From contig JAFRFB010000038.1 in assembly GCA_017434555.1 (NCBI GenBank), forward strand, positions 1 to 64,000: 64,000 bases of DNA. The letters run 5' to 3'. Source of the DNA: Methanobrevibacter sp. GTDB lineage: Archaea > Methanobacteriota > Methanobacteria > Methanobacteriales > Methanobacteriaceae. Below are positions 16,218 to 34,442 of the stretch, piece by piece. The notes beneath the pieces are model-generated. The model was given only the letters and a program-made list of their open reading frames with translations, had not been told where the DNA came from and made no database searches. A program made the position numbers and the translations under genes. How positions within the stretch are numbered: the stretch's first letter is position 1; every line of letters begins with the position of its first letter.

Positions 16218-17635
16218 AAACAGATTTAAGTGTTATTATCCCTGTTTATAATGTTGAATCTTATATTAGAGAATGTTTAGATTCAATTGTTAATCAAACT
16301 ATTGGAATAGAAAATATTGAAATCATTATAGTTAATGATAAAACACCAGATAATAGTATGGATATTGTTATGGAATATGCAGAAAGATATCCTTCTTTTA
16401 AAATAATTAATAATGAAGTTAATCAGGGATTGGGTGAAAGTAGAAATATTGGACTTAAACATGTCAATTCTGATTATGTTACATTTGTTGATAGTGATGA
16501 TTTTATTTCATTGAATGCTTATGAGGATGCATTAAATAAAATTAATGAATTTGATGTGGATTTGTTAATTTACAGTTGGGAAACATATGATGGAAATGAT
16601 GTTGTTCAGACAAATAACATTCACCATCAGTGCTATAGGGAAAACATGTTAATAGAGGATATTAATAATTTTCCTAAATTATTCTTTTTAACTTCGGCAT
16701 GGAATAAAATTTATCATAAAAGTTTATTTCCTCTTTTAAAGTATTCTAAAGGTTTTTATGAAGATAATTATGTCACATGTAATGTTTTATTAAATGCTAA
16801 ACGCATTTTCTATAGTAAAGATTCAACTTATTATTATAGAAAAAATATGGATTCAATCACTGAAAAAATTTCCAAAGATAATGTAATTGATTTGTGTAAT
16901 GTAATTTCCCAGTTATATGAATTCAATAATGATAATGTTAATTTATTAACTATTAATTTTATCAATGATGTAATATTCTGGATTTATTATTATGATTGGG
17001 CAATATGCGATGAAATATATTTTGTTGAAAAACTTCAGAAATCTTCAAAAAACATTAGACAATCTGACATTGAAAAATTTGTTGATTTCTTCCCAGATTG
17101 GAATTTTTACAAAGAAGATATTTTAAATTTACATAATTATGATGCAGAAACTTTTCTTGCTAAATATAAATATTTTAATCATTTTTCTAAAGTTGAAACT
17201 TTCGCCAACTTGTATGTAGATACGGGTAATGGATTTAATGAGGATGAAAAAATAGAAATTACTTATTCTCCTAAAAAAAATAATAATAAGTTAATCTTTG
17301 ATTTGTCAAAATTTAAAATAACTGAAAATTTACGTTTTGACCCATTAGAGGGAGAATTTATCAAGGCCAAAATAAATAATGTTAAAGTTTTAGAGGCGAA
17401 TTCCAATAATCCAGTCACTGATGATTATCAATATTTTTTAACCTTGGACCCTTTTTTTATTCTTGATGCAGAATTTGATGATAAGTTAATGATAGATTTT
17501 GATTTGGACTTTTTAACTAATGAGGAATTGGCTAACTTTTTCCATCAAAAAGAAATAAGCATTATTGAAAAAAATAATATTATAAATGAGTTTAATCAAA
17601 ATAATAAGAAAGGTAGATTTAATTTTTTTAAGTAG
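16214..17635 (+). CDS. GT2 glycosyltransferase with C-terminal extension
   Basis: This 473-residue protein has an N-terminal GT2 domain (DLSVIIPVYNVESYIRECL, with IVNDKTPDNS and VDSDDF as DXD). Residues from about 330 form a separate, probably beta-rich domain of unknown function (KLIFDLSKFKI..., LRFDPLEGEF), a layout seen in other cell-surface GT2 enzymes. It is translationally coupled to the previous gene through ATGA. The sugar specificity is unknown. Confidence 0.87.
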   Translation: MKTDLSVIIPVYNVESYIRECLDSIVNQTIGIENIEIIIVNDKTPDNSMDIVMEYAERYPSFKIINNEVNQGLGESRNIGLKHVNSDYVTFVDSDDFISLNAYEDALNKINEFDVDLLIYSWETYDGNDVVQTNNIHHQCYRENMLIEDINNFPKLFFLTSAWNKIYHKSLFPLLKYSKGFYEDNYVTCNVLLNAKRIFYSKDSTYYYRKNMDSITEKISKDNVIDLCNVISQLYEFNNDNVNLLTINFINDVIFWIYYYDWAICDEIYFVEKLQKSSKNIRQSDIEKFVDFFPDWNFYKEDILNLHNYDAETFLAKYKYFNHFSKVETFANLYVDTGNGFNEDEKIEITYSPKKNNNKLIFDLSKFKITENLRFDPLEGEFIKAKINNVKVLEANSNNPVTDDYQYFLTLDPFFILDAEFDDKLMIDFDLDFLTNEELANFFHQKEISIIEKNNIINEFNQNNKKGRFNFFK

Positions 17636-17642
17636 TGAAATT

Positions 17643-19178
17643 ATGGTAACTTTTAAAGATTTTTTAATAAAGTCAAAATTCAATGTTAATAAAGCTAAAA
17701 TTTATCAGGAAAGTTATGATAAGATTATGAAATCTGGCTTATTTGATAAAAACTATTATTTAAAAGCTTATCCCCATGTGGAAAAATCCGGCATGGATCC
17801 ATTGTTTCATTATTTGTTTTATGGTGCTGGGGAACATAAAAATCCTTCACCATCATTTGATCTTAAAAGATATTTGCAGGAATATCCTGAAATTGAAAAA
17901 AATAATTTAAACCCTTTAATTCATTATATTGACAATAATAACGACGGTTTTATTGTAGATAACAGTCCCTTTGTTTTAAAGAAGAAAAAGATTATAGATA
18001 CAAATAAATTATATTTATCAAACTATGAATTTGACAGTGAGCCTATGGTTTCAATTATTGTTCTGACTAGAAACGGAATAAATCATTTGAAACTGTTGTT
18101 TGAAGATTTTGATGAAAAAACCAACTATTCAAATTATGAAATAATTGTTGTTGATAATGCATCAACAGATGACTCTGTCAGTTTTTTAAAAAGTCTGGAC
18201 TTGCCAATTACCATAATTGAGAACTCTGAAAATGTCAGTTTTTCAAAAGGCAATAATGATGCAGTCAAAATTGCCAACGGTGAATATTTGCTTTTGATGA
18301 ATAATGATATTGAACCTACTTATGGATGGTTAAATGAAATGGTTGGATGCATGTTAAGTAATGAAAATGTAGGTTCAGTTGGTGCTAAATTGATATTTCC
18401 TTACTATGAAGATATGGAAAGTCAGGCACAGTCCTATACTATCCAGCATGCAGGCGTAAAATTCAGGGAAGAGCGAACTCCTTATATTTACGGGCCTTAT
18501 CATGAAAATATGTATTCCACATTAGTGTTTTCAAGTGATGTAAATCATCAAAAAGAAGTTCTCTCTAACACTGCAGCATGTATTTTAATCCCAAAGGATA
18601 TTTATTTTGAATTGGACGGTCTTGATGAAAATTATATTTATGGATATGAAGACATTGATTTTGCATTTAAATTGTATAAAAATAAGTATAAATCCATTTA
18701 CAATCCTTTTGCCTTAGCATTCCACCATGAATCTTCTACCCGTTATGAAAATGAGGCTAAAAAAAATAGACTCAATTATGAAAATATAATGCATTTCTAC
18801 AGTAAATGGGGAGATTTTATTTTCAAAGAAATATTAATCGATAAAATCAATCAAAATCATTTTATAACAGATAAAAAACTTGATATTTCAATTGTTTCAA
18901 AAAATAACAAATTTATAACTAAATTAGTAAAAGATTTAAATAATAAAGGATTCAATGTTAAATTAATTCCTGATTTGAACAATTTGGATATTGGCCAAAA
19001 TTGTGATATATTAATATCAAATGATAAAGATTATGATGTGGATAAATTAATTTCAAGATTAAATACAATTAAAGTTTTAATTTCTGATGATAATGATGCA
19101 CGATATGATATCTGCTTGGAAAAATGTGAAAATTATGCTGATAAGTTAATGGATGTAATCGAAGATAGGTATTTGTGA
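17643..19178 (+). CDS. GT2 glycosyltransferase with N-terminal HYL/G repeat module
   Basis: This is a 511-residue protein. Residues about 20-110 carry a repeated motif around FDKNYYLKAYPHVEKSGMDP and HYLFYGAGEHKNP, a module found in several proteins of this locus. A GT2 domain follows (MVSIIVLTRNGINHLK, VVDNASTDDS, MNNDIEP as DXD, and GYEDIDFAFKL). The last ~100 residues form a small alpha/beta domain. ATG 17643 is chosen because the alternative at 17586 lies inside the preceding gene. Its GT2 core is nearly the same as in 26195-27763, so the two are recent duplicates. Confidence 0.88.
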   Translation: MVTFKDFLIKSKFNVNKAKIYQESYDKIMKSGLFDKNYYLKAYPHVEKSGMDPLFHYLFYGAGEHKNPSPSFDLKRYLQEYPEIEKNNLNPLIHYIDNNNDGFIVDNSPFVLKKKKIIDTNKLYLSNYEFDSEPMVSIIVLTRNGINHLKLLFEDFDEKTNYSNYEIIVVDNASTDDSVSFLKSLDLPITIIENSENVSFSKGNNDAVKIANGEYLLLMNNDIEPTYGWLNEMVGCMLSNENVGSVGAKLIFPYYEDMESQAQSYTIQHAGVKFREERTPYIYGPYHENMYSTLVFSSDVNHQKEVLSNTAACILIPKDIYFELDGLDENYIYGYEDIDFAFKLYKNKYKSIYNPFALAFHHESSTRYENEAKKNRLNYENIMHFYSKWGDFIFKEILIDKINQNHFITDKKLDISIVSKNNKFITKLVKDLNNKGFNVKLIPDLNNLDIGQNCDILISNDKDYDVDKLISRLNTIKVLISDDNDARYDICLEKCENYADKLMDVIEDRYL

Positions 19179-19182
19179 TATT

Positions 19183-21753
19183 ATGGTATATGATAAGATT
19201 TATAAAACATATATGAAAGTTTCAGAAGAATATGTTAATAGACCATTATTCAATCATTCAACTGATTCTGCAGAAGAAACAATTGAAGATATTAAAAATA
19301 ATAAAATAGCTATTTACACGGCTTTCACGGGAGATTATGATACATTAAAGCAACCTGAAGTCATTGATGAAAATTGTGATTATATATGTTTTAGTGATAA
19401 TCCTAACTTAACATCCGATTTATGGAAAATTATTCCGATGGAAGACTCAACTTTGGACAATAACAGGAAAGCCAAACAATATAAAATACTTCCTCACAAA
19501 TACTTAAAAGATTATAAATACAGTTTCTGGCTGGATGGGACTTTTAAAATTAAAGGAAGCATCCGTGAATACATTTATAATAATATCCGTGCTAATTCCA
19601 ACATGTTAATTGTTGTTCACACCGAAAGGGATTGTGTTTATGACGAATATGACGCTTCTAAAATTATTCCACGTTATCCAAGGGCTGTAATGGAAGAACA
19701 GGTTGAATTTTACCGTTCACAGGGATTTCCCGAACATTACGGTTTAGGTGTTATGGGCGCTCTTTTCAGACAACATAATCATCCTAATGTTATTAAGCTA
19801 ATGGATGACTGGTGGGATGAAAATATTAAATACACTAATCAGGATCAGCTTAGTTTTGCCTTTGTATGTTGGAAAAATGATTTTCATCCTTCTGTAAGTC
19901 GTATTTTTTATTGGGAAAATGAATACTGGGTTAAAGAAGGCAAATATTACCATCATAATGTTATATTCTATACTCCAATCACTAGTGATAACTTAAGAGC
20001 CAAAATTGGTGTTGATGTCCAAAATATGAAACTTGGAGATACTATTGATTTGTCTCGTGAAGAGTTATATTTGCTTGTTAATGATGTTAAGGGAATGGCA
20101 GGTTATAGAATCGATACTGCCGGTCGTGCTGCTTATTTGAAAAAAGAGTATAATTCATTTCTGAATTCTAATTCAATGAGATTAACGAAACCATTAAGAC
20201 TTGCAGGTGATTTGGTTCGTAAAGTTAAGCGCAATGCTTATTATGAAGCTTTTAAAAATTCAAAAATAAAATTTCCTCTAAATTTAAAAAAATATAGGAA
20301 TATAAAAAATTTGGGACTTTTGGATGAGGAAGAATATGTTAAAAAACATCCTTGTAACAATCCTGCATTACATTACGTTGAAAAGGCATCAAAAACAGAT
20401 ACAATTGATGAGAAAATAAAATATATCAATCCTATTTTTGATATGTATTATTATATTTCTGAAAATGGAATTGGTGATGATGATCCGGTTCTTCATTATG
20501 TTAAAAGAGGATTTGGACAAAATCTAAAGTTTAATAGATTATATCCTAATTTTTTAACTAATTTAGATGAAAATATAGATGATCAGTTAGAAAAATTTAT
20601 AAATAATCGTATTGAAGATGAATTATCTTCAAATCATTATATCACGGATTCTAAGGTATTGATTGATTATATTGTTTGTGAAGAAAAATTTGAAACTGAT
20701 ACAATCAAGGTAGGTGTATTTTTAGAGGATAATTTTGATAATATGAATGCATGTCCATTTATAAGAATTCATACACTATTTTCTGAATTATCAAAAAATA
20801 ACAATTATCATTTCTTTATTTATGGAAAAGATATAATGCCTCTTTTAGATACTGAAAACATGATTAATGACCATATTTTTGATGTTATTGTTATACAAAG
20901 AGTCAATCCCTATTCAACTGAACTTTTAAAGAAAGCTAAAAAGCATAATATTAAGGTCATTTATGAAACTGATGATGATTTCCTGGATATTAATCCATCA
21001 AATCCTTCATATACCTATATTTTAGAACATTTTGATAAAATTCAAAAACTTGTAAAAAATGCAGATTACATAACTGTAAGTACTAATGAATTGAAAAACC
21101 GTTTAAACAGGTTAAATGTTAATAACGTTGAAATTATTAGAAATTATCATGTTAATGATTCATTGCCTATGAAACCATTTGAATATAGGGAAAATAACAT
21201 TATTAAAATTGGTTATTTCGGAACTTTAACTCATCAGGGCGATTTGGATTTGGTCCATAACGTTATTTTAAGATTAAAGGATATTTACTCTAAAAAAGGC
21301 ATAGAAATAATTTTTGAAATGGCAGGCGCTGCAATGATTGAAGATTCTGACTGGATTAATGTAATTAAGCTGCCATATTATCCGATGTCAGCCAATACAT
21401 TTTATAGATGGTTAAGTGAAAATTCTGATTGGGATATAGGTGTTATTCCATTGTTAAATACAGAATTCAATAAATGTAAAAGTGAGCTTAAATATATAGA
21501 ATTTTCCGCTTTGGGTATTCCTGTGGTTGCAAGTGATGTCAGTGCCTATAGTGAAACCATTCAAAATGGAGTTAATGGATATTTATCCAGTAATGAAGAT
21601 GAATGGGTTGATAAACTATCTGTATTAATCGATGACCCTATCTTTAGAAATGGTATCGTTAATAATGCTCGAAATGACGTTATTGAGAATTATAATTTAA
21701 AATCTCGGGTCGATCAATGGGATAATATATTTAAAAAAGTATTGGATGATTGA
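19183..21753 (+). CDS. DUF616-GT4 fusion glycosyltransferase
   Basis: This is an 856-residue fusion. Residues 35-290 are a DUF616 domain (IAIYTAFTGDYDTLKQPE, KYSFWLDGTFKIKG, TNQDQLSFAFV), a glycosyltransferase-like family. Residues about 370-500 hold the HY-type repeat module. Residues about 510-856 are a GT4 (GT-B) domain with VIYETDDDFLDI and a C-terminal LKYIEFSALGIPVVASD donor-binding segment. The same parts occur as separate genes at 25160-26194 (DUF616) and 22904-24430 (repeat plus GT4). The convergent gene starts one base after its stop. Confidence 0.87.
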   Translation: MVYDKIYKTYMKVSEEYVNRPLFNHSTDSAEETIEDIKNNKIAIYTAFTGDYDTLKQPEVIDENCDYICFSDNPNLTSDLWKIIPMEDSTLDNNRKAKQYKILPHKYLKDYKYSFWLDGTFKIKGSIREYIYNNIRANSNMLIVVHTERDCVYDEYDASKIIPRYPRAVMEEQVEFYRSQGFPEHYGLGVMGALFRQHNHPNVIKLMDDWWDENIKYTNQDQLSFAFVCWKNDFHPSVSRIFYWENEYWVKEGKYYHHNVIFYTPITSDNLRAKIGVDVQNMKLGDTIDLSREELYLLVNDVKGMAGYRIDTAGRAAYLKKEYNSFLNSNSMRLTKPLRLAGDLVRKVKRNAYYEAFKNSKIKFPLNLKKYRNIKNLGLLDEEEYVKKHPCNNPALHYVEKASKTDTIDEKIKYINPIFDMYYYISENGIGDDDPVLHYVKRGFGQNLKFNRLYPNFLTNLDENIDDQLEKFINNRIEDELSSNHYITDSKVLIDYIVCEEKFETDTIKVGVFLEDNFDNMNACPFIRIHTLFSELSKNNNYHFFIYGKDIMPLLDTENMINDHIFDVIVIQRVNPYSTELLKKAKKHNIKVIYETDDDFLDINPSNPSYTYILEHFDKIQKLVKNADYITVSTNELKNRLNRLNVNNVEIIRNYHVNDSLPMKPFEYRENNIIKIGYFGTLTHQGDLDLVHNVILRLKDIYSKKGIEIIFEMAGAAMIEDSDWINVIKLPYYPMSANTFYRWLSENSDWDIGVIPLLNTEFNKCKSELKYIEFSALGIPVVASDVSAYSETIQNGVNGYLSSNEDEWVDKLSVLIDDPIFRNGIVNNARNDVIENYNLKSRVDQWDNIFKKVLDD

Positions 21754-21754
21754 T

Positions 21755-22855
21755 TTAGAATAATCTTTCTTTTATATTCTTAATTTTATATTTAAACCAT
21801 CCTTTGGTAGTCTGAAGCGTTGCAACTTGTCTGGTCTTTTGGTCGAGTGCCACTTCAAGATTTTGTATTCTATTTACAAATAACTGGTAATCTCCCATCT
21901 GCATATATGCTTCATCTAAGTTTCCTTGAATAATTTGATTAATAATACTTTTAATTGCATTGTTTTCAGGATATGGTTCTATATTTTTCATTCTTTTAAA
22001 TATCGGGATTGATTTTTCAACCAATGCTTTTTTATCTTCAAGTGATATTGTTTCACTTAATGCAACATCGCTAAGCCAGCAGGTTAAATGCTGATTAAAA
22101 ATTCTATCATAATACCTGCATGCATTATTTTTCTCCAAAACATCAATTGTATATGTGTAACCTTCTATTAATCCATCTAAATAGTGTATTCCTTTTGATA
22201 AACTTGTCGATGTCTCATCCCTAGTTCTTAATCTAAAATTGTAAACAATATCATTAATAAAGATGATTTTTTCCGCATTAAGAAATGCATCTACCATAAA
22301 AGTCAAATCTTCTGCAAAAACTTCTTCTGGAAATGATATTTCATGTTTAAGCAAAAATTCTTTTGGAAATATCATTCTCCAAATATTATTCATTGAGAAA
22401 AAGAAGGGATTTTCATCTATTGAATTTAAAATCGTATCTTCAGTAATCCAATGTTCGGTTACAAGATTATTGTCTCCGAAATTTTGGTATTTGCCAATAG
22501 CAATGTCTGCATTATTCGTTGTAATTGCATTATATAATTTTTCTACAGTATCTGGAAGATATCTGTCGTCATGGTCAATGAACATTATATAATCTGATTC
22601 ACTATTTTTTATTCCTATATTTCTTGCTCTTCCGGGAGTTCCTGTTTTTTTGCCTGATTCATAGGTTTTAATATTTTCATATTCTTCGCAATATTTGTTA
22701 ATTAATTCTTGCGTTGAATCTGTTGAATAATCGTCGACAATTATCAATTCAATATTTTCAAAACCAATGCTTTGAGCTTTAATTGTTTCAATCGTTTCGT
22801 CTAAAAATTCAACACTATTATATGAAGGAATAATAACAGTTACTATATATGACAT
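21755..22855 (-). CDS. GT2 glycosyltransferase on the opposite strand
   Basis: This 366-residue protein has an N-terminal GT2 domain (IVTVIIPSYNSVEFLDET, QSIGFENIELIIVDDYS, FIDHDDRY as DXD) and a C-terminal coiled coil ending in TTKGWFKYKIKNIKERL. It is closest to the tandem pair at 29338-31435, which share QSIGFENI and the D-H-D-D motif. It is the only minus-strand glycosyltransferase in the run, and it is abutted at its 3' end by the DUF616-GT4 gene. A 48-base AT-rich spacer on its 5' side must hold divergent promoters for it and 22904-24430. Confidence 0.87.
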   Translation of the reverse strand: MSYIVTVIIPSYNSVEFLDETIETIKAQSIGFENIELIIVDDYSTDSTQELINKYCEEYENIKTYESGKKTGTPGRARNIGIKNSESDYIMFIDHDDRYLPDTVEKLYNAITTNNADIAIGKYQNFGDNNLVTEHWITEDTILNSIDENPFFFSMNNIWRMIFPKEFLLKHEISFPEEVFAEDLTFMVDAFLNAEKIIFINDIVYNFRLRTRDETSTSLSKGIHYLDGLIEGYTYTIDVLEKNNACRYYDRIFNQHLTCWLSDVALSETISLEDKKALVEKSIPIFKRMKNIEPYPENNAIKSIINQIIQGNLDEAYMQMGDYQLFVNRIQNLEVALDQKTRQVATLQTTKGWFKYKIKNIKERLF

Positions 22856-22903
22856 AAATATATTTTTATTTAAATGAATATATATAATTAAAGAGTTGAA
22901 ATA

Positions 22904-24430
22904 ATGTTTTTTTCTAAATCAATTAAAAAAAATCCTAAAATGTATATTACACTTAAATCAAAGGGTAATCCTCAAAAAATTTCCAAATATCAGGATGCTT
23001 ACTCACGTATTAAAAGTTTAGCTATTATTGATGAAGATAAATATTTGGAAGTTCACAATAATTTAAATGATTTAGACTACATTCTCCATTATTTATATTA
23101 TGGCATTAATGACCCGCTCGAAGTACAGCAATCATACATCTGTGATGTATTTGACCTTGAATTTTATAAAAATAATTATAATGCTGAATATCCTCTTTTA
23201 GATTATGTTTTAGATGGTTTTTTTAAAAAAAATCAAATCAATGTTTTAGATAATAATTATGTTAATACTCTTGAAGCGAAGCTTTATGAACAGTATGTCG
23301 CAAACCAAAAGTCAAGTGTCGAAAATATTGTTTCCAATTCTTATTATATTCATGATAAAAAAACAGTAATTCCTTATATTGAACGTGAATCTCCGATTGA
23401 TCTTGATACAGTTCGTGTTGGTGTTTTTACAAATGATCCATTTGTAAATTTGCCTCCATGTTCATATATAAGACTGCACGCAATATTTTCTAAATTGGCT
23501 GAAAGTGAAAAGTATACTTTTTTCATGTATGGTATGGATAGCTATGCAATACTGGAAATTGATGATATTTTAAAATGCAGGCTTTTTGACGTGGTGGTTG
23601 TCCAGAGAATACTTCCTTTTTTAGATGAATTGCGTGAGAAATGTGAAAAATATGACATTAAATTAATTTATGAAACTGATGATGATTTACTGGGTGTTGA
23701 AGAGGATAGTCCATCATATGAATATGTTAATAGAGTTTCTAAATCCATAATAGATTTTATTGATGCCAGTGAGGTCATTACAGTTACAACACCAACTTTG
23801 GCATCTAAATTTGATGAAAATAAGGTGGTCATCATACCAAATTACTATGTGGATTCCGTATTTGACATTAAAGAAAATATTAAAACTGAAGGTAAACTTA
23901 AATTAGGATATTATGGAACATTAACTCATTCTAAAGATTTATTCTTGATTAAAAATGTTATTTTAAAGTTAAAAGAAAAATATGATTTTGATTTTGAAAT
24001 CATTGGAGGATTTAACGCTTCGGATAATGTTGATGAGAATTGGTTTAATCCTATTGAACTTCCTCCAAACAATATGGATTTTGAGAAATTCATGAAATGG
24101 CTACCTGAAACAATTGATTGGGATATTGCACTTGTTCCCCTTGAAAATTCACCATTTAATCAAGGCAAAAGTGAGTTGAAATTCATTGAACTTGCTGTAT
24201 TAGGACTTCCTGGTGTTTATTCGGATATGTGTGTTTATAATAATGTGGTTGAAGATGGTGTTAATGGATTTTTGGCTTCAAATGAAGATGAATGGATTGA
24301 AAAAATTGAAATGCTTATTTTAGACAAATCTTTAAGAAAAACTATCCGTCAAAATGCTTTAGACAAAGTTTTGGCTGATTATACAATTGAAGATAGAATT
24401 AACAAATGGGATATTATTTTATCAAAATAA
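22904..24430 (+). CDS. GT4-like glycosyltransferase with N-terminal repeat module
   Basis: This is a 508-residue protein. Residues 25-110 are a degenerate HYL/G repeat module (YILHYLYYGINDP). From about residue 165 there is a GT-B fold of the GT4 type: VRVGVFTNDPFVNLPPCSYI, LFDVVVVQRI, LIYETDDDLLG and the donor-site segment SELKFIELAVLGLPGVYSD. It is clearly paralogous to the C-terminal half of 19183-21753. Its reaction is not deducible. No strong ribosome binding site is visible before ATG 22904 (GAGTTGAAATA). Confidence 0.85.
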   Translation: MFFSKSIKKNPKMYITLKSKGNPQKISKYQDAYSRIKSLAIIDEDKYLEVHNNLNDLDYILHYLYYGINDPLEVQQSYICDVFDLEFYKNNYNAEYPLLDYVLDGFFKKNQINVLDNNYVNTLEAKLYEQYVANQKSSVENIVSNSYYIHDKKTVIPYIERESPIDLDTVRVGVFTNDPFVNLPPCSYIRLHAIFSKLAESEKYTFFMYGMDSYAILEIDDILKCRLFDVVVVQRILPFLDELREKCEKYDIKLIYETDDDLLGVEEDSPSYEYVNRVSKSIIDFIDASEVITVTTPTLASKFDENKVVIIPNYYVDSVFDIKENIKTEGKLKLGYYGTLTHSKDLFLIKNVILKLKEKYDFDFEIIGGFNASDNVDENWFNPIELPPNNMDFEKFMKWLPETIDWDIALVPLENSPFNQGKSELKFIELAVLGLPGVYSDMCVYNNVVEDGVNGFLASNEDEWIEKIEMLILDKSLRKTIRQNALDKVLADYTIEDRINKWDIILSK

Positions 24431-24525
24431 GGATAATTTTATATACCATTTAATAATTAATAGTATTCAATGGAGAGGAATTTAATCGGAAGTAGTATTC
24501 CGGTATAGGAAGTTGGTGATTTAAG

Positions 24526-24792
24526 ATGTTGGAGCAATATTTACCATTTGTTGGGCTTATAATATTTGGAAATATTGAAAATTTAGTGCTTTCCTCACAA
24601 GGAGTTGTGGCAGGGGTCAATCCGGTTAAATTAGGAATTGCTAGTTTTATTGCAGTGGCTGCTTGGTTACTAATTGGTACATTTGGAACTCAAATCGCTT
24701 TGGCTTATGTTGATTTCATTGATTTTTTCGGCGGTTTAGTTATTTTTGTTCTAGGTGCACAGGCTATGTTGGAATCAATTAGGGGAGTATAA
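24526..24792 (+). CDS. Three-helix half-transporter-like membrane protein A
   Basis: This 88-residue hydrophobic protein has three predicted helices (about 5-25, 33-55, 63-85). The first carries FGNIENLVLSSQGV and the last GGLVIFVLGAQAMLES. The E-N motif and the GG...G.Q.M.E pattern recall one repeat unit of TerC/LysE/MntP-type ion carriers, which are built from two three-helix halves. A paralogue starts two bases after its stop. It is preceded by TTTATATA (near 24439) and GTTGGTGATTTAAG before the ATG. Ion transport is inference, not shown. Confidence 0.6.
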   Translation: MLEQYLPFVGLIIFGNIENLVLSSQGVVAGVNPVKLGIASFIAVAAWLLIGTFGTQIALAYVDFIDFFGGLVIFVLGAQAMLESIRGV

Positions 24793-24793
24793 T

Positions 24794-25078
24794 ATGCAAA
24801 GCGAATTAAAACCGTTTATAACATTAATTGTTTTTGGAAACATAGAAAACCTAATTTTAGCAGCACAAGGTGTAGGTGCTGGTGTTAATCCGGTTGGTTT
24901 AGCTATTTTAAGTTTCATCGCTGTTTTCTGTTGGTTTTTAATCGGTACATTAGGCACTAAAGTAGCTATCAAATATGCACGTCATATCAATTTCATTGGT
25001 GGACTTGCTATATTCATTTTAGGTATTCAGGCTATGCTTGAGTCATTACCGGGAATTTTACATTATTTTCACATCTAA
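24794..25078 (+). CDS. Three-helix half-transporter-like membrane protein B
   Basis: This 94-residue paralogue of the preceding gene shares FGNIENL, QGV.AGVNPV, LSFIAV and GGLAIFILGIQAMLES. ATG 24794 is chosen because GGGGAGT lies seven bases upstream and the frame upstream (from 24755) overlaps gene A. The two products probably form a heterodimer equivalent to one six-helix carrier. T-rich sequence follows the stop. The family is not firmly recognised. Confidence 0.6.
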   Translation: MQSELKPFITLIVFGNIENLILAAQGVGAGVNPVGLAILSFIAVFCWFLIGTLGTKVAIKYARHINFIGGLAIFILGIQAMLESLPGILHYFHI

Positions 25079-25097
25079 ATGATTTTTAATTTTTTTG

Positions 25098-25150
25098 GAT
25101 ATATTTAATTAATATCACATAGATATTAATTAATAATACATAATTTTTAG
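25098..25150 (+). promoter_or_regulatory. Promoter with third copy of the 18-bp repeat
   Basis: GATATATTTAATTAATAT at 25098-25115 is identical to the two repeats in the wecC/rfbD spacer. It is followed by AGATATTAATTAATAAT, which resembles a diverged second copy. The position, about 50 bases before the DUF616 start, fits a core promoter. Confidence 0.5.
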
Positions 25151-25159
25151 TTGATTTTT

Positions 25160-26194
25160 ATGAATTGTGATGAGAATCCCTATGAAGTAGTAAGAGCTAG
25201 ATTTGAATCAAATGTTGACAGTTTCATTTTAAGTGATTTATTTAATCCAAATCTTCAAACCGATGAAGAATTAATCAATGATATTAAAGATAACGAATTA
25301 GTAATTTACACGGCATTCACTGGGGATTATGATTCATTGAAAGAGCCGGAATTCATTGATGAAAATACAAAATATGTATGTTTTACTCAAATTCCTGATT
25401 TAAAGTCCGATACATGGGAAATTATTCAGATGGAAGATTCAATATTTGATGATAATCGGACTGCAAAGCAATATAGGCTTTTTCCTCATGTTTATTTTCC
25501 GGATTTCAAATACAGTTTTTGGCTTGACGGAACCTTTAAAATAAAAGGCAGCATTCGTGAATATATTTATAAATACGTTAATTCTCCGATGCTGGTTGTT
25601 GTTCATCCAGAAAGGGATTGTATTTATGATGAAGCAATAGAATCAATGCCTTTTGCAAGATATTCCAATTACTCAATGTCCCATCAGGTTGAAACATACG
25701 AATTTGAGGGCATGCCTAAGCATTATGGTCTTTTAGCTTCAGGAGCGTTATTTAGGCAACATAACAATCCGGAGATTATTTCTTTAATGGAGCAGTGGTG
25801 GGAAGAAATTATCAATCATACAAACCAGGATCAGTTAAGTTTTCCTTATGTAATGTGGAAAAATGATTTTCATCCCTCTGTTTCACCCGTTTACTACTGG
25901 GAAAATGAATACTGGACAAAAGAGGGCGATTATTTCCATCACAATTTTGAAGTTGAAGATTATATAACAAGCAGAAATTTAATCAAATCTCTTGAAGGCA
26001 ATATTAAAGAGACAAATACCTTAACAAAAGAAGAGATTACCTTACTTTTCAATGATATCGATGCTTTAAGGGAAGAAGCAAATATATTAAATTATAATAG
26101 GGATCATTGGGTTAGAGAAATCAACGATATTAGGGATTCTAAATCATGGAAGATTACTAGCAAGCTTAGGAAATCTAAAAATAAAGGTGATTAA
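25160..26194 (+). CDS. DUF616 glycosyltransferase-like protein
   Basis: This is a 344-residue protein. Residues 40-285 are a DUF616 domain with VIYTAFTGDYDSLKEPE, SFWLDGTFKIKG, HPERDCIYDE and TNQDQLSFPYVMW, very similar to the N-terminal half of 19183-21753. A C-terminal coiled coil ends DSKSWKITSKLRK, the locus-typical tail. ATG 25160 is preferred over TTG 25151 because the AGTTGATTTTT context matches the GGTGATTTTT sites used elsewhere in the window. The next gene begins at the adjacent base. Confidence 0.83.
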   Translation: MNCDENPYEVVRARFESNVDSFILSDLFNPNLQTDEELINDIKDNELVIYTAFTGDYDSLKEPEFIDENTKYVCFTQIPDLKSDTWEIIQMEDSIFDDNRTAKQYRLFPHVYFPDFKYSFWLDGTFKIKGSIREYIYKYVNSPMLVVVHPERDCIYDEAIESMPFARYSNYSMSHQVETYEFEGMPKHYGLLASGALFRQHNNPEIISLMEQWWEEIINHTNQDQLSFPYVMWKNDFHPSVSPVYYWENEYWTKEGDYFHHNFEVEDYITSRNLIKSLEGNIKETNTLTKEEITLLFNDIDALREEANILNYNRDHWVREINDIRDSKSWKITSKLRKSKNKGD

Positions 26195-27763
26195 ATGGGA
26201 ATCTTTTCCGCTTCAAATTTAAAATCTTCTATTAAAAACCGCAAATATTACAGTCAGATTAAAAGTTCAGGTTTGTTTGATTACGAATTTTATGAAAATA
26301 CTTATGATGATTTTGATGGAGATGCATTGACTCATTATTTGACCGAAGGTTTTAAGCAGGGAAAACTTCCCTCTTTAGATTTCGATCCTGATGTTTATTA
26401 TAGATTGTATCCTAATGTTGAAGTAGCCGGAATAAATCCGTTATTGCATTATATTGCTCATGGTAAAGCTGAAGGCAAATACATACAGCAATCCTATTCC
26501 ATTAGAAGAAAAGCGGAAATTTGTGAAACTAATTTGGCATTTTTATCAAATTATGAATTTGATTCAGAACCATTGGTATCCATCATTATTCTAACGAGAG
26601 ATGGTTTAACTCATTTGAAACGTTTATTTAAAGATTTTGACGCTAAAACAAATTATTCCAATTATGAGATTATAGTAGTGGATAATGCATCAAGTGACGC
26701 TTCTGTTGATTATTTAAAAAGTTTGGATTTACCAATAACGATTATTGAAAACTCTGAAAATGTCAGTTTTTCCAAAGGCAATAATGATGCAGCCAAAATT
26801 GCAAAAGGAGAATATCTGCTTTTATTGAATAATGATATCGAGCCGACATACGGATGGTTAAATGAAATGGTCGGTACAATAGTTTATAATGATGATGTAG
26901 CTTCTGTTGGTGCTAAACTTATTTTTCCTTTTTATTTCACTGCTAATAGAGAAATATCTTACAGCATTCAGCATAGTGGTGATATATTTGCTGAAAGAAT
27001 GAATCCTTGCTGTTTATATGCAAAAAACAGATCTGATTCTAGTTTAGATATCTTTGATTCATATTTAACTCAAAATAATCAATGTGTGGCCGTTACAGGT
27101 GCCGTTAATTTAATTGATAAAAAGGTTTATGATGAACTTTCCGGTTTGGATGAGGAATATATTTATGGTCTTGAGGATGTTGATTTCTGTCTGAAATTAC
27201 ATGAAAATGATTATAAAGTTTTATTTGCAGGAAATGCTGTCCTGTTTCATCATGAATCCAGTACTCGTGTTAAAAGTGAAAGCTATTTTGAAAATGACAA
27301 GCATAATTACGATGTTTTCTGGAAAAAATGGGGCCAATATTTATCAAGAAATCTATTTTTGGATAAAATCAATTCAATTAAATTTTTCACAGAAAAAAAC
27401 CTTAAAATCACTATCATTGATGAAAATAACCCTGTAAATAAGAAATTGATATCAGAAATTTCTCAAAAATTCAATGATTTAAACTATTATGTTGAATTAA
27501 TCACTGACATGAAAAATAATTATGTTGGCAATTCCGCAGATATTTTACTTTCATTTACCGATAATTATAATTTGGATAATCTTATTGCACGTGAGGATAT
27601 TGTAAAAGTCATTGTTAACCGGGATAACTTAAACACTGATGGCTATGATATTACTGTCTCATTGGATGATGATAAATCAGGTGATATTAATATAAATGAT
27701 GATTTTGCTTCAGAATTTTTAGAAAAGCTAGAAAATATAATAAAAGATGATTATGAGTTTTAA
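26195..27763 (+). CDS. GT2 glycosyltransferase with N-terminal HYL/G repeat module
   Basis: This is a 522-residue protein. Residues 25-105 hold two repeat units (YYSQIKSSGLFDYEFYEN, HYLTEGFKQGKLP, YRLYPNVEVAGINPLLHYI). A GT2 domain follows from about 125 with IIILTRDGLTHLK, VVDNASSDAS and NNDIEP. It shares long identical peptide blocks with 17643-19178 such as SLDLPITIIENSENVSFSKG, pointing to a recent duplication. The start follows AAAGGTGATTAA. The next gene overlaps its end by 17 bases. Confidence 0.88.
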   Translation: MGIFSASNLKSSIKNRKYYSQIKSSGLFDYEFYENTYDDFDGDALTHYLTEGFKQGKLPSLDFDPDVYYRLYPNVEVAGINPLLHYIAHGKAEGKYIQQSYSIRRKAEICETNLAFLSNYEFDSEPLVSIIILTRDGLTHLKRLFKDFDAKTNYSNYEIIVVDNASSDASVDYLKSLDLPITIIENSENVSFSKGNNDAAKIAKGEYLLLLNNDIEPTYGWLNEMVGTIVYNDDVASVGAKLIFPFYFTANREISYSIQHSGDIFAERMNPCCLYAKNRSDSSLDIFDSYLTQNNQCVAVTGAVNLIDKKVYDELSGLDEEYIYGLEDVDFCLKLHENDYKVLFAGNAVLFHHESSTRVKSESYFENDKHNYDVFWKKWGQYLSRNLFLDKINSIKFFTEKNLKITIIDENNPVNKKLISEISQKFNDLNYYVELITDMKNNYVGNSADILLSFTDNYNLDNLIAREDIVKVIVNRDNLNTDGYDITVSLDDDKSGDININDDFASEFLEKLENIIKDDYEF

Positions 27764-29336
27764 AAATAAACTTTTTGCTAAAATTCCCAGCAAATACATT
27801 TCATACAAAGTTAAAGACAAGGCTAAGGCTTCAGAAATTACTAAAGGTTATAAAGCCATTAGAAAAAATAATCTATTTGATGACGAGTTTTATTTAAAAA
27901 AGTATCCTAAGGTTGCAGCTTCCGGAATGGATCCTCTGCTTCATTATATTTTCTTCGGGTTTGAAGAGGGTAAAAAGCCAAATGATATATTTGACGGCGT
28001 TTTTTATAAAAATCATTATTCTGACGTTGATATTAATCCATTGATTCACTATGCATTATACGGCATGAATGAAAATAGGCTGATTAAAGTTCAAAACATT
28101 GATTTGTCCGAATTCAATATTGAAGATAAGAAGAATATCCTATTTGTTCTTCATGAAAAGGTAGGTACTGTTGGTGGGACCGGTTTTTTAAACATGGATA
28201 TCATTGATAATTTGCCTGATACTTATAATGCTTTTATTTTAACTTCGGATGGTGAAGATATTGAATTATGGAATGTAAATAACAATTTAGAAAAGATTGC
28301 TAATTATAATGTTTCTTTTAATACAAATTTTTCCGTAATTGATAATGAGGGTAATTTTATTTCACAGGACAATTTTGAAATGCTATTTTCCAATGAGAAA
28401 TTGGCTGTCATTTACGATGAAATTCTATCAAAATTAAATATATCTTTAGTTCATATCAATCATTTAATTAATCATACTTTTGATTTAATTGATATTATTA
28501 TAAAAAAATCAATTCCATTTCTCATCAATCTACATGACTTCTATTATTTATGTCCATCTATTCATTTAGTCGATAGGAACTGTCAATATTGCGGTTTCAA
28601 TTGCTCTGATTGTGGGGGAATAGCCCATAATTCGGATATTTCCAACGATATGATACTTGAAAGATGGCATAAGGAATGCTTTAAGCTTTTAAAAAATTCA
28701 CATGTTAATATTGCTCCGACTCAAAGTGTAGTTGATTTTTATAAAAAAATTTATCCGGATTTGGATAATTTTACTGTAATAGAGCATGGTGTGGAAATAA
28801 ACAAATCTTCATACAATGCAAAATTAACATCCGGACCGATAAAAATTCTAGTTCCGGGCCATGTTTCCTCTCATAAAGGTTCTTTGGTGATTAAACAATT
28901 AAAAGAATTGGATAAAAACAATAACCTTGAATTGCATTTAATGGGAACCACAATCCCTAATTTAAATAAATATGGAATTAACCATGGTAAATATAAACGA
29001 AGTGATTTTAATAAATTGGTGTGTGAAATTGAACCTTCATTTTCTTTAATTTTATCTACTTGTCCTGAAACATATTCATACACTTTAACTGAATCATGGA
29101 TGGCGGGACTACCGGTTATAGCCAGTAATTTGGGAGCTTTAAAGCAAAGAATTGATTCAACTGGTGGAGGATGGCTGGTTGATTATAAAAATGTAAATGA
29201 TATATATAACTTAATTATTAATATAAATCAAACTGAATATGAAAATAAACTTTCAAATATTTCAAAAATAACATTTAAAGATTTAAATGATGCATGCATT
29301 GAATATATTGCGTTATATGATAAATTAACTGATTAA
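27747..29336 (+). CDS. GT4 glycosyltransferase with N-terminal HYL/G repeat module
   Basis: This is a 529-residue protein. Repeat units fill residues 30-115 (DDEFYLKKYPKVAASGMDP, HYIFFGFEEGKKP). A GT4 domain covers about 125-525: a cysteine cluster CQYCGFNCSDC near 275, LVPGHVSSHKGS near 370 and the donor segment SLILSTCPETYSYTLTESW. The start is ATG 27747 or 27753, both inside the preceding gene's end. The cysteine cluster may bind a metal. Only one base separates the stop from the next ATG. Confidence 0.86.
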   Translation: MIMSFKNKLFAKIPSKYISYKVKDKAKASEITKGYKAIRKNNLFDDEFYLKKYPKVAASGMDPLLHYIFFGFEEGKKPNDIFDGVFYKNHYSDVDINPLIHYALYGMNENRLIKVQNIDLSEFNIEDKKNILFVLHEKVGTVGGTGFLNMDIIDNLPDTYNAFILTSDGEDIELWNVNNNLEKIANYNVSFNTNFSVIDNEGNFISQDNFEMLFSNEKLAVIYDEILSKLNISLVHINHLINHTFDLIDIIIKKSIPFLINLHDFYYLCPSIHLVDRNCQYCGFNCSDCGGIAHNSDISNDMILERWHKECFKLLKNSHVNIAPTQSVVDFYKKIYPDLDNFTVIEHGVEINKSSYNAKLTSGPIKILVPGHVSSHKGSLVIKQLKELDKNNNLELHLMGTTIPNLNKYGINHGKYKRSDFNKLVCEIEPSFSLILSTCPETYSYTLTESWMAGLPVIASNLGALKQRIDSTGGGWLVDYKNVNDIYNLIININQTEYENKLSNISKITFKDLNDACIEYIALYDKLTD

Positions 29337-29337
29337 T

Positions 29338-30387
29338 ATGTCTGATTATAAACTTTCTGTCATTGTTTCCACTTACAATACTGGTGATTATTTAAATGAG
29401 TTTTTAGACTCCATGAAATCACAGAGTATCGGATTTGAAAATATTGAGGTTATCTTTGTTGATGACAATTCAAATGATGAGTATACATTGGAGTTATTAA
29501 GAAAATTTAAAAAGGATTATGAAAATGTTAATGTTGAATTTTTGGATGTCAACTCCGGATTTCCGGGAACGGGCAGAAATACCGGTTTAAAATTATCCAC
29601 TTCCGATTATGTTATTTTTGCAGACCATGATGACACATATACAGAAAATGCCTTTGAAGTGATGTGTGATAAAATCGCAGATAATGACATGCTCATTTCC
29701 AATTTTAATCAGGTGTTTACAGATAAAACTATTCCATTCAAGTCAATTTTTAAGGATTCTGGTGAGATTAAAGTTTCAGATATAGATGAGGATAAAATGC
29801 TTTTAAGAGTTCCTGCAGCTATTTGGACAAGGTTATTTAGAAAATCCTTCTTAATTGAAAACGATATTAACTTTTTGGAGGGAATGCTTGCTGAAGATGT
29901 TTATGTTGCTACTTATTCCTGTTTAAAAGCAAAAGGAATTATTTACCTTAATGATTTTTATTCTTATAATTACAAAATAAGAGATAGCAAAGATGACAAA
30001 TCAACAATTCATGTAAGGAATAGAAAATATATTGAAGCTATTTTAAATGGCTATTATAAAATCGATGAGATGTTAATTAATTTAAATAAAACTTCATATG
30101 GTGAAACAATATTTAAAAGTCACCTTACTTCATGGTTATACACGATTGTTTTATCAAAAATCAGTGATGGCGATAAAAAAGAGTTGTTTATAAAGTCTCA
30201 TGAAATATTCAATAAATATTACAGCGAAGATCCTTACTTTAAAAAAAGATATGATAAATTGGTTGATTTAATATTAAACCAGAAATTTGATGATGCAGTG
30301 ATTGAATCTAATAGGCTGGAGAAAAAACAAGAAAATATGAATGATAGAAGTTTGTTTTCAAGAATTAAAAATAAATTGGTAAGATAA
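29338..30387 (+). CDS. GT2 glycosyltransferase, tandem copy 1
   Basis: This 349-residue GT2 enzyme has LSVIVSTYNTGDYLNEFL, QSIGFENIEVIFVDDNS and FADHDDTY as the DXD motif, with GFPGTGRNTG as nucleotide-site loop. It is followed one base after its stop by a close paralogue with the same motifs. The C-terminal 40 residues are basic and may touch the membrane. The acceptor is unknown. Confidence 0.87.
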   Translation: MSDYKLSVIVSTYNTGDYLNEFLDSMKSQSIGFENIEVIFVDDNSNDEYTLELLRKFKKDYENVNVEFLDVNSGFPGTGRNTGLKLSTSDYVIFADHDDTYTENAFEVMCDKIADNDMLISNFNQVFTDKTIPFKSIFKDSGEIKVSDIDEDKMLLRVPAAIWTRLFRKSFLIENDINFLEGMLAEDVYVATYSCLKAKGIIYLNDFYSYNYKIRDSKDDKSTIHVRNRKYIEAILNGYYKIDEMLINLNKTSYGETIFKSHLTSWLYTIVLSKISDGDKKELFIKSHEIFNKYYSEDPYFKKRYDKLVDLILNQKFDDAVIESNRLEKKQENMNDRSLFSRIKNKLVR

Positions 30388-30388
30388 T

Positions 30389-31435
30389 ATGGAAAGATAT
30401 AAAGTTAGTGTAATTGTTCCAACATATAATTCAGGTTTATTTCTCAATGCATTTTTTGATTCAATGATGTATCAAAGTATCGGATTTGAAAATATTCAGG
30501 TAATATTCGTGGATGACTGTTCCGATGATGAATATACTTTATATTTACTTGATTTATTTGATGAAAACTTTCCTAATGTCAAATCAATATTTTTAGATGA
30601 AAATAATGGTTTTCCAGGTAAAGGACGTAATGTTGGTATAGATTTATCAGATGCTCAATATGTAATTTTTTCAGACCATGACGATACATATGCTCCCGAT
30701 GCTTTTGAAGTGATGTATAACAGTGCAGTAGAAAATAATGCAGATATGACAATTACAAATTATTATAGGGTATTTCCGCATGAAAAGAAAAAAGTCAAAA
30801 CCGTTTTCAATGGGGAAAACATTGTCGTTGATAGTGTATTGGATGATAAACGTTTATTTAGCATTGACCCTGCAATCTGGTGTAAATTATTTAAAAAAGA
30901 ATTTTTAATAGACAATAATATCCGCTTTTTGGAAGGAATGTTGGCTGAAGATTTTTATTTCTTTATCGTATCATTGTTTAAGTCATCATGTACTGTTTAT
31001 TTGGATGATTTCTTCAGTTATAACTATTTTATCCGTAATGTTGAAGGGGATAAATCCACAATCCATATTAGAAATAAAAAATACTTGGGTAAAATGATTG
31101 AAGGATACTGGAAAGTTAATGAATTCTTGATTGAATCCAATTATGATGAATTTTATCCTGAAATTTTTAATATGCACCTGGTATATTGGATTACCAGTTT
31201 AATTATCAGTGATATTTCGGATGATGAAAAACGTCAGCTGATTATTTATGTTAATGAACTTCTAAAAAAAGATGTAAAGGTGAATCCGGGCTTTAATGAA
31301 AAAATTTATTCAAGTTTAACTAAACCGATACTGGAAAATGATTATACTAAAACTGTAAAAACTCTTAATTCAATCAAAAGATATCGGGGTATCTTATCGA
31401 TACTGAGCGATACTTTTTCAAGGTCCGGGAGGTAG
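30389..31435 (+). CDS. GT2 glycosyltransferase, tandem copy 2
   Basis: This 348-residue paralogue of the preceding gene shows YKVSVIVPTYNSGLFLN, QSIGFENIQVIFVDDCS, GFPGKGRNVG and FSDHDDTY. Conserved positions extend through FLEGMLAED and GDKSTIH.RN.KY in the C-terminal part. Tandem duplication followed by divergence suggests two successive, similar sugar additions. Glycerophosphotransferase-like 31439-32524 follows after three bases. Confidence 0.87.
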   Translation: MERYKVSVIVPTYNSGLFLNAFFDSMMYQSIGFENIQVIFVDDCSDDEYTLYLLDLFDENFPNVKSIFLDENNGFPGKGRNVGIDLSDAQYVIFSDHDDTYAPDAFEVMYNSAVENNADMTITNYYRVFPHEKKKVKTVFNGENIVVDSVLDDKRLFSIDPAIWCKLFKKEFLIDNNIRFLEGMLAEDFYFFIVSLFKSSCTVYLDDFFSYNYFIRNVEGDKSTIHIRNKKYLGKMIEGYWKVNEFLIESNYDEFYPEIFNMHLVYWITSLIISDISDDEKRQLIIYVNELLKKDVKVNPGFNEKIYSSLTKPILENDYTKTVKTLNSIKRYRGILSILSDTFSRSGR

Positions 31436-31438
31436 TAA

Positions 31439-32524
31439 ATGTATTTAAAACATAAAATATTTGGAAAATTATTTAATTTTTTCACTAAACTTCCTATAGA
31501 CAATAATTTAATTTCTTTTATTGTGGATTCCAATGAATCATTCAGCGGAAATCTGGAATATATTAAAGATGAATTCGAAAAAAGAGGAAATTTTAACTTT
31601 AATTTTTATTATAAGGATAAATTATCATTAGACTCTTTGAAAAAATTAGCTACTTCAAAATATATCTTTTTAAACGATAATTTCTTCCCCTTTGCTTTCA
31701 TGAAATGCAATAATCAGACAACTGTAATTCAGCTATGGCATGCGCCGGGAGCTTTTAAAAAGTTTGGTGGAAGTGTAGAAAATGCTTCAATGCTTAAAAT
31801 GATATCCAATAACACTGATTATTTAATAACTTCTTCAAAACATATTGAAAATTATTATTCAGAAGCATTTCAAATTGATAAATCTAAAATCAAGCCGCTG
31901 GGCCTTCCCAGAGCGGATTATTATTTCAAAAATCATGACGTTGATAAATTGAGGGATAATTTTAATAAGGAATATGGTGTGGATTCCAGTAAAAAAATCA
32001 TTTTATACGCTCCAACTTTTAGGGAAAATGAGGAATTCAACAACGTTTTCAATTATCTGGACTTGGAAAAATTCAATAAAAGACTTTCCGACGAATATGT
32101 TTTGGTGTTGAGACTCCATCCTAAAATAAAGAAATTCTACTCTTCAGAAATTTCAGTTAACGGTGACTATGTTGATTGCAGTGATTATAAAAACGAACAG
32201 GAACTCTTATTGTTGTCTGATATATTAATAACGGATTATTCTTCCATAATGATTGAATTTGGTCTTTTAAATAAACCTATAATATTTTTTGCTTATGATT
32301 TGGAAAATTATCTGTCCAATGAACGTGGATTTTACCTGGATTATAAAAAAGATCTTCCAGGACCAATTGTTTATACAAGCGATGAATTAATAGAATGCAT
32401 TGATGAAGGCATTGACTCTTCCAATTTGGATTCATTTGTAAAAACTCAATTTGATGAAATAAATGGCAATGCATCAAAAAGAATAGTTGATTTTGTTTTG
32501 AATGAGGGTGAAAAAAATGGATAA
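31439..32524 (+). CDS. CDP-glycerol glycerophosphotransferase family protein (TagB/TagF-like)
   Basis: This 361-residue protein matches the teichoic-acid type transferases, which move glycerol-phosphate or ribitol-phosphate from a CDP donor to a lipid-linked glycan. Diagnostic segments are VIQLWHAPGAFKKFG, ILYAPTFRENE, LRLHPK and ILITDYSSIMIEFG. The N-terminal ~60 residues are a short extension. GGGAGGT precedes ATG 31439. The locus lacks a visible CDP-glycerol synthase (tagD), so the donor is uncertain. It suggests a phosphodiester-linked or glycerol-phosphate-decorated polymer. Confidence 0.88.
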   Translation: MYLKHKIFGKLFNFFTKLPIDNNLISFIVDSNESFSGNLEYIKDEFEKRGNFNFNFYYKDKLSLDSLKKLATSKYIFLNDNFFPFAFMKCNNQTTVIQLWHAPGAFKKFGGSVENASMLKMISNNTDYLITSSKHIENYYSEAFQIDKSKIKPLGLPRADYYFKNHDVDKLRDNFNKEYGVDSSKKIILYAPTFRENEEFNNVFNYLDLEKFNKRLSDEYVLVLRLHPKIKKFYSSEISVNGDYVDCSDYKNEQELLLLSDILITDYSSIMIEFGLLNKPIIFFAYDLENYLSNERGFYLDYKKDLPGPIVYTSDELIECIDEGIDSSNLDSFVKTQFDEINGNASKRIVDFVLNEGEKNG

Positions 32525-33473
32525 TATCAAGATAAGCATAATATTGCCAGTTTTTAATGAGGAAGAGTATATTAAAGCGACTTTGGATTCAATTTTTAAT
32601 CAGGACTTTGATGATTTTGAAGTAATTGTGGTTGATGATGGATCTAGCGATAAAACTTTTGATATTGTTAAAGAAACTTTTGAAAATTCAGACATTAATA
32701 ATCAGATTATTCGCCAGGAAAATAGGGGAGCCGGTGCTGCAAGAAACAAAGGAATTTCTTTGGCTCGAGGTGAATATATAGTATTTGTCGATGGTGACGA
32801 TTATATTTTAACAAATCATTTAAAGGAACTCTATAATCCTCAATACGATTTTTCATTATCTCAGATGGTTAAAAAAGAAAATAACTATATTACGAATCCT
32901 CATATTTATGACGTTGATGAAATTACAACTAAAGAATTCATTAAACAGGAATTGGAGATGAAAATCCCTTTTAATTTTGTCCAATTATCTTATAAACTGG
33001 ATATCATTAAAAAACATAATCTTAAATTCCGTGAAGATGTAAGTTATGGTGAAGACACTGATTTTGCTTTAAGGGCATTGAGTTACGGCGATTCAATTAA
33101 AATTAGTAATGAAATTACCTATTATTATTTGCAGCATCAGGAGTCATTAATCAATACTTCCAAACTTAAACGTTTTGATTACATTCCTGTTTTAGAGGAT
33201 TTGGCTGATTTTTTCAAAAAGCAAAATCAAGATGATTTGGCCGAATTAATTCATACTTCCAGAATTCCAAGAGCTATTTTTGGTAATATGAACTTCTTTT
33301 TTTATCATAATTATGATTTTGATGATGTTATTCAAAGAATGAAAGAGTTAAATCTGTTTGATAAATTGTCTAAATTTGAAGGAGATGGGAAATTCGCTCT
33401 TAAAATTAGGTTATTTTTATTAAACCCTAAGTTATATTATATAATGTGGAAAAAATTTAAAAATTCTATTTAG
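32517..33473 (+). CDS. GT2 glycosyltransferase
   Basis: This 318-residue GT2 enzyme has IKISIILPVFNEEEYIKATL, VVDDGSSDKT, RGAGAARNKGI and FVDGDDYI as DXD motif, plus SYGEDTDFALRAL. ATG 32517 is chosen because GAGGGTG lies immediately upstream and the resulting start is typical. It overlaps the end of the previous gene by eight bases. The last 30 residues are basic and amphipathic, suggesting membrane contact. Confidence 0.87.
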   Translation: MDNIKISIILPVFNEEEYIKATLDSIFNQDFDDFEVIVVDDGSSDKTFDIVKETFENSDINNQIIRQENRGAGAARNKGISLARGEYIVFVDGDDYILTNHLKELYNPQYDFSLSQMVKKENNYITNPHIYDVDEITTKEFIKQELEMKIPFNFVQLSYKLDIIKKHNLKFREDVSYGEDTDFALRALSYGDSIKISNEITYYYLQHQESLINTSKLKRFDYIPVLEDLADFFKKQNQDDLAELIHTSRIPRAIFGNMNFFFYHNYDFDDVIQRMKELNLFDKLSKFEGDGKFALKIRLFLLNPKLYYIMWKKFKNSI

Positions 33474-33479
33474 ATTAAT

Positions 33480-34436
33480 ATGAAAGTTTCAGTGGTCACT
33501 CCTAATTATAATGGAGTTAAATTTTTAAAAAATTACTTTAATTCGCTTAATCAGGACAGTGAATTCATTGGTGAAGTTATAATTATCGATAACGGATCTG
33601 ATGATTCTAGTCTAGATTATATTCAGGAAAATAATTTTAATTTCCCTGTTGTTGTAATAAAAAATGATGAAAATCTTGGTTTTGCACCTGCTGTAAATCA
33701 GGGAATATTAAAATCAAAATACGATTATATATTTTCTCTGAATAATGACACTGAAATTGAAAAGGGCTCTATTAAGGCAATGCTTGATTTGATTCAGGAA
33801 GACGGTGTGTTTTCCGTTCAGGCAAAAATGCTTCAATCAGCTAATAAACAGTTGATTGATGATGCAGGAGATGAGTATAATTTACTTGCATGGACTAAAA
33901 AGATAGGTGAAAATCAGAATTCAGATAACTACTTAGAAGTTTTTGAAATCTTTTCAAGCTGTGCAGGGGCAGCATTATATAAAAAATCAGTATTGGAAGA
34001 AATCGGAAGTTTTGATGATAACTTCTTTGCATATATGGAAGACGTTGATTTGGCAATCAGGTCACAAATCTACGGATATAGGAACTTGCTTTGTCCCGAT
34101 GCGATTGTATATCATATTGGAAGTGCTACAAGCGGCAGCAGATATAATGAGTTTAAAGTAAAAATCGCCGCTAGAAACAATGTCTGGACGGTTTATAAGA
34201 ATCTTCCAATCCCGTTAAAGATAATCAATTTCATATTTTTATTTTTCGGTTTTCTGATAAAATACATATTCTTTTTGAAAAAGGGATTTGGTTCAATTTA
34301 TCTAAGTGGACTAAAAGATGGCCTAAATACGAAAAATAAACTTAATAAGGTATCTTTTAAAAAATCTAATTTAAAAAATTATTTCAGACTTGAATACAAA
34401 TTAATTATAAATACATTAAAATTTCTAAAAAAGTGA
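33480..34436 (+). CDS. GT2 glycosyltransferase, rhamnosyltransferase-like
   Basis: This 318-residue protein has an N-terminal GT2 domain of the WcaA/rhamnosyltransferase type: VSVVTPNYNGVKFLKNY, IIDNGSDDSS, SLNNDTEIE as the DXD segment and FFAYMEDVDLAIR near 180. A hydrophobic segment (IINFIFLFFGFLIKYIFF) near residue 250 should anchor it to the membrane. Since dTDP-rhamnose is made in this locus, rhamnose is a plausible donor. It lies six bases after the previous stop. Confidence 0.87.
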   Translation: MKVSVVTPNYNGVKFLKNYFNSLNQDSEFIGEVIIIDNGSDDSSLDYIQENNFNFPVVVIKNDENLGFAPAVNQGILKSKYDYIFSLNNDTEIEKGSIKAMLDLIQEDGVFSVQAKMLQSANKQLIDDAGDEYNLLAWTKKIGENQNSDNYLEVFEIFSSCAGAALYKKSVLEEIGSFDDNFFAYMEDVDLAIRSQIYGYRNLLCPDAIVYHIGSATSGSRYNEFKVKIAARNNVWTVYKNLPIPLKIINFIFLFFGFLIKYIFFLKKGFGSIYLSGLKDGLNTKNKLNKVSFKKSNLKNYFRLEYKLIINTLKFLKK

Positions 34437-34442
34437 ATTATC

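Follow-up and report, generated by a model that had tools for sequence, protein, structure and literature searches.

The 64,000-nucleotide stretch of Methanobrevibacter sp. DNA analyzed here (the window) contains two small genes, A and B, arranged in tandem, with glycosyltransferase genes on either side:

22904..24430, forward strand: upstream neighbor, a GT1-type glycosyltransferase (Pfam PF00534)
24515..24520, forward strand: GGTGAT, from the sequence the likely Shine-Dalgarno element of A
24526..24792, forward strand: gene A (88 aa), the first half, an ORF with orthologs; three transmembrane helices (TM) predicted, N-terminus outside and C-terminus inside; GNIENL at residues 15-20
24782..24787, forward strand: GGGGAG within the end of A, from the sequence the likely Shine-Dalgarno element of B, suggesting translational coupling
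24794..25078, forward strand: gene B (94 aa, from the ATG at 24794), the second half, an ORF; three TM predicted, N-terminus inside and C-terminus outside; GNIENL at residues 15-20
25151..26194, forward strand: downstream neighbor, a TOD1/MUCI70 glycosyltransferase-like protein (Pfam PF04765)

A and B are real protein-coding genes under purifying selection. In a comparison of the window copy with 20 orthologous pairs, codon positions 1/2/3 differ 307/145/774 times in A and 263/112/705 times in B, and this excess at the third position indicates that both code for proteins. The initial annotation had recognized them as tandem paralogs of 88 and 94 residues sharing FGNIENL and GG...G.QAMLES, and this is borne out: the two ORFs lie where it placed them, their products are identical at 54 of 88 positions (61%; BLASTP, no gaps, E = 1e-37), and both carry FGNIENL and GGLxIFxLGxQAMLES. 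The three helices it had ascribed to each protein are also predicted for both A and B; the spacing of two bases is in fact a single base (24793). In all 230 proteins of the family, the G-N-I-E-N-L of TM1, a tryptophan and a glycine in TM2, and several isoleucine, leucine and glycine positions in TM1 and TM3 are identical.

A genome scan using exact peptide patterns, which reaches close relatives only, found the tandem pair in 104 of the 152 genomes of the class; hence, more distant relatives may exist elsewhere. The pair-bearing genomes belong to four of the 20 genera, all of one family, with the pair conserved across those four, and the named records among them are nearly all Methanobrevibacter and Methanosphaera. 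Genomes with matches have two to six copies, mostly two or four, which corresponds to one or two tandem pairs; none of them is listed with a single copy, and the viral, phage and plasmid collections contain no relatives of A or B. In a tree of the 230 single proteins, A and B are reciprocally monophyletic with one label change (support 0.92), which indicates that one A/B duplication predates the split of the four genera and that A and B subsequently traveled and multiplied together, their order being fixed. The genome of the window itself has a second A/B pair (G000:C111:169069-169618; L031:7070-7628), which occurs outside the glycan clusters beside unrelated genes, and in genome G123 a three-gene array, A-B-B (L066:6706-7736), has a single A followed by two B copies that differ from each other.

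Throughout the family, lysine and arginine residues of A concentrate in its TM1-2 loop and C-terminus, whereas B carries them at its N-terminus and in the loop between TM2 and TM3. On average the K/R bias of A is +3.6 and that of B is -2.5; the two are opposite, with the higher value in A, for 101 of the 102 pairs. The lone exception is best explained by the A-B-B array, where two B copies had been matched with each other. Taken with the positive-inside rule, this predicts that A is N-out/C-in and B is N-in/C-out, so that the two halves should insert antiparallel; the same charge test has been applied to UPF0016 pairs (PMC4067407). The prediction, with three helices in each protein and opposite biases, reproduces the 3+3 arrangement with inverted halves of MntP and the LysE superfamily. 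This bias is the strongest evidence for a putative antiparallel heterodimer of A and B, a complex that the initial annotation had proposed from gene order and spacing and which is further backed by the single A/B duplication and by a natural fusion. That fusion also answers the question, raised at the outset, of whether fused homologs exist elsewhere: in one Methanobrevibacter MAG (G113; L051 = L071), known from one assembly, a single ORF of 196 residues spans both A and B, which are joined by an acidic linker. Its order—A running out-to-in, the linker inside, and B in-to-out—agrees with the charge prediction, and it groups among unfused relatives in the tree and thus looks derived within the A/B family.

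None of the curated families in Pfam and NCBIfam accepts A, B, the fusion, the read-through pairs or the consensus sequences, and a sequence search of the PDB matches no solved structure. Below threshold, the Pfam profile of MntP (PF02659) matches one of 13 fused or read-through members (E = 0.0011) and that of TerC (PF03741), a family found nowhere in the class, matches residues 35-186 of the fusion (E = 0.082; 13.1 bits vs a cut-off of 27.8); the consensus sequences match neither. CadD (PF03596) gives no match at its cut-off with A, B, the fusion or the consensus. Nor do A and B match, in Pfam, UPF0016/GDT1 (PF01169), which is absent from the whole class and whose E-x-G-D-(K/R)-(S/T) motif is missing from A and B, with GNIENL in its place.

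For profile-profile comparison with hhalign, the only rows used to build the paired A-B model were the natural fusion and pairs read through in frame, mixed alignments having misplaced B rows on the wrong half; the read-through rows are a computing device and imply no biological read-through. Against 15 archaeal MntP proteins this profile gives a probability of 93% and an E-value of 2.8e-7. With a wider MntP set it scores 50.3, a value reached by none of 150 column shuffles preserving hydrophobicity classes (mean 14.3, sd 3.4, maximum 25.7), and with the halves swapped to B-A it scores 33.7. Of the two proteins, A is the better fit to the N-terminal half of MntP and B to the C-terminal half. 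In the panel of other families, which is small (eight), unrelated membrane families score 11-18, LysE 21, and reversed families 11-22.5. The MntP signal comes mostly from TM5-6, and removal of TM6 lowers it to 25.5, a score at the margin of the null. In the alignment, the invariant glutamate of NIEN (in GNIENL) is set opposite the conserved aspartate of MntP TM4; members of MntP have a fully conserved aspartate in TM1 and TM4, and all 230 proteins have an invariant glutamate instead. We regard the profile comparison as fair evidence for a distant homology of A/B to the LysE superfamily, as distinct from membership in MntP. The initial annotation had read each protein as half of a TerC/LysE/MntP-type carrier and pointed to a profile search against transporter families: what endures of this is the distant MntP/LysE profile similarity, with its 93% hhalign match, while A and B stay below the curated cut-offs and find no significant match in Foldseek.

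The AF2 model of the fusion (12 paired rows; pLDDT 80.6, pTM 0.74) has three helices in each half and a break in TM1 at GNI, and that of B alone (50 rows; pLDDT 81.6) has three helices with TM1 unbroken. Foldseek comparison with the PDB and viral models returned no significant match, a weak negative given that an MntP model was not included as positive control; ninth place went, without significance, to CcdA (LysE superfamily, DsbD branch).

Among known systems, MntP (PF02659, TC 2.A.107) shares with A/B the 3+3 TM arrangement, the in-register profile match of A with its N-half and B with its C-half, an acidic residue in TM1/TM4, a GG..I..G pattern in the last helix, and an acidic central linker, present in the A/B fusion. 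However, A/B are two genes rather than one, have the glutamate of GNIEN where MntP conserves an aspartate, and remain under every curated cut-off. CadD (PF03596) also has a conserved acidic residue in TM1/TM4, an aspartate shared with MntP, and in its TM4 an asparagine right after it, conserved at position 8 of the motif (PMC4608589), comparable to NIEN; but it has no sequence match to A/B, is one fused gene, and in this class occurs in only two other genera. The UPF0016/GDT1 family (PF01169, TC 2.A.106) likewise features tandem genes for 3-TM halves whose K/R bias is opposite according to gene position, and its fused versions have an acidic loop in the cytosol, comparable to the linker of the A/B fusion (PMC4067407, PMC7380456); it differs from A/B in its E-x-G-D-(K/R)-(S/T) motif, and no single-gene (dual topology) form of A/B was seen. 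The SMR pairs (EbrAB, ArnEF; PF00893) are also two small paralogs forming an antiparallel heterodimer, but have four TM rather than three, and their profile score of 16.2 is at the null level. Split 3-TM pairs (UPF0016) and small antiparallel pairs (SMR) are thus already known, and what is new is the uncatalogued A/B family, its likeness to MntP, and the presence of pair and fusion side by side; families with both are few, and only UPF0016 and DUF606 were named as such in PMC4067407.

An origin of A and B by fission of MntP was rejected, as the likeness of A to B far exceeds that of either to MntP. With A and B so alike and yet barely detectable against MntP, their duplication is their own and probably later. 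Hence, it is separate from the duplication within MntP and a parallel repeat of the same route. The idea that the pair mimics an ancestral unfused form accordingly fits as a parallel case and fails if A/B are taken for a relic of MntP.

The window has a large run of glycosyltransferase genes at 17586-35300, with TOD1/MUCI70-like domains (PF04765) at 19183-21753 and 25151-26194. When loci are sorted by the tree of pairs, glycosyltransferase neighbors accompany 32/32 loci of the window clade and 3/3 of the fusion clade, against 2/81 of the other clades. This position in glycan clusters recalls TMEM165/GDT1, whose Mn2+/Ca2+ transport is linked with glycosylation (PMC7380456). Second pairs, by contrast, have variable neighborhoods in which no conserved partner was found, and the pair therefore does not seem to need a fixed third protein. 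In most pair-bearing genomes an ordinary full-length MntP is encoded as well, so that a manganese role of A/B would be an additional one. On two Methanosphaera contigs (L084:11639-12187; L145:12103-12477), an MntP gene is situated 1-2 kb downstream of the A/B pair, a possible functional link.

On balance, we favor the reading in which A and B assemble into a fusion-ready 3+3 heterodimer that acts as a carrier of the LysE/MntP type. Each would supply one half of a small secondary carrier and cross the membrane three times, with the N-terminus of A outside and that of B inside, yielding an antiparallel, pseudo-symmetric 3+3 unit like the fused carriers of the LysE superfamily, of which MntP is the nearest. 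The invariant G-N-I-E-N-L of both TM1s would meet centrally as the substrate site, with the glutamate replacing the aspartate of MntP and CadD. The likeness to MntP, together with the acidic and amide side chains, would make a divalent cation the most likely substrate, and the pair may export such an ion (Mn2+-like) by alternating access. In the window clade, the carrier would serve the surface-glycan machinery encoded around the pair.

The consistent placement of the window and fusion clades among glycosyltransferases also speaks for the main rival reading, that the pair is a flippase or exporter of glycolipids or of lipid-linked sugars, built as an antiparallel heterodimer and working like ArnE/ArnF (SMR) or, within the LysE superfamily, like the GAP (peptidoglycolipid) branch. 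Peptidoglycolipid exporters are reported within that superfamily (PMC4608589), and one SMR subtype moves glycolipids (PMC9574504). Against this stand the three helices instead of four, the SMR score within the null, and the scarcity of glycosyltransferases near the loci of the other clades; moreover, the invariant polar GNIEN would better suit an ion, and we consider a flippase unlikely. Somewhat less probable still is that A and B are non-carrier membrane accessory subunits, such as assembly factors or regulators, of the glycan machinery: the absence of a fold or curated-family match to any carrier and the fixed place of one clade in glycan clusters are consistent with this, but the second pairs lack a conserved partner in their variable neighborhoods, the polar TM1 motif is invariant, and the profile is MntP-like with the halves in the correct order. 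SemiSWEET-like 3-TM halves forming parallel dimers, as SemiSWEETs do, would have the right size and draw on a weak NCBIfam match of SemiSWEET_2 to TM2-3 (E = 0.061), but that match scores 13.5 bits vs a cut-off of 80 and the opposite K/R bias points to antiparallel insertion, making this a very improbable explanation.

To return to the heterodimeric carrier, its fuller formulation has in our estimate about an even chance of being right: A and B would be uncatalogued, obligate antiparallel heterodimeric half-carriers, so far confined to host-associated Methanobacteriaceae, in which an MntP/LysE fold repeats the pair-to-fusion route of UPF0016, with a natural fusion present and one clade devoted to surface-glycan synthesis. 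Carriers with inverted repeats are thought to have originated from antiparallel pairs through fusion. The A/B family, whose close relatives carry the pair in dozens of cases and the fusion in one, makes that fusion step open to test, and, if the reading is true, it would add a glycan-synthesis-linked carrier to the main methanogens of the gut.
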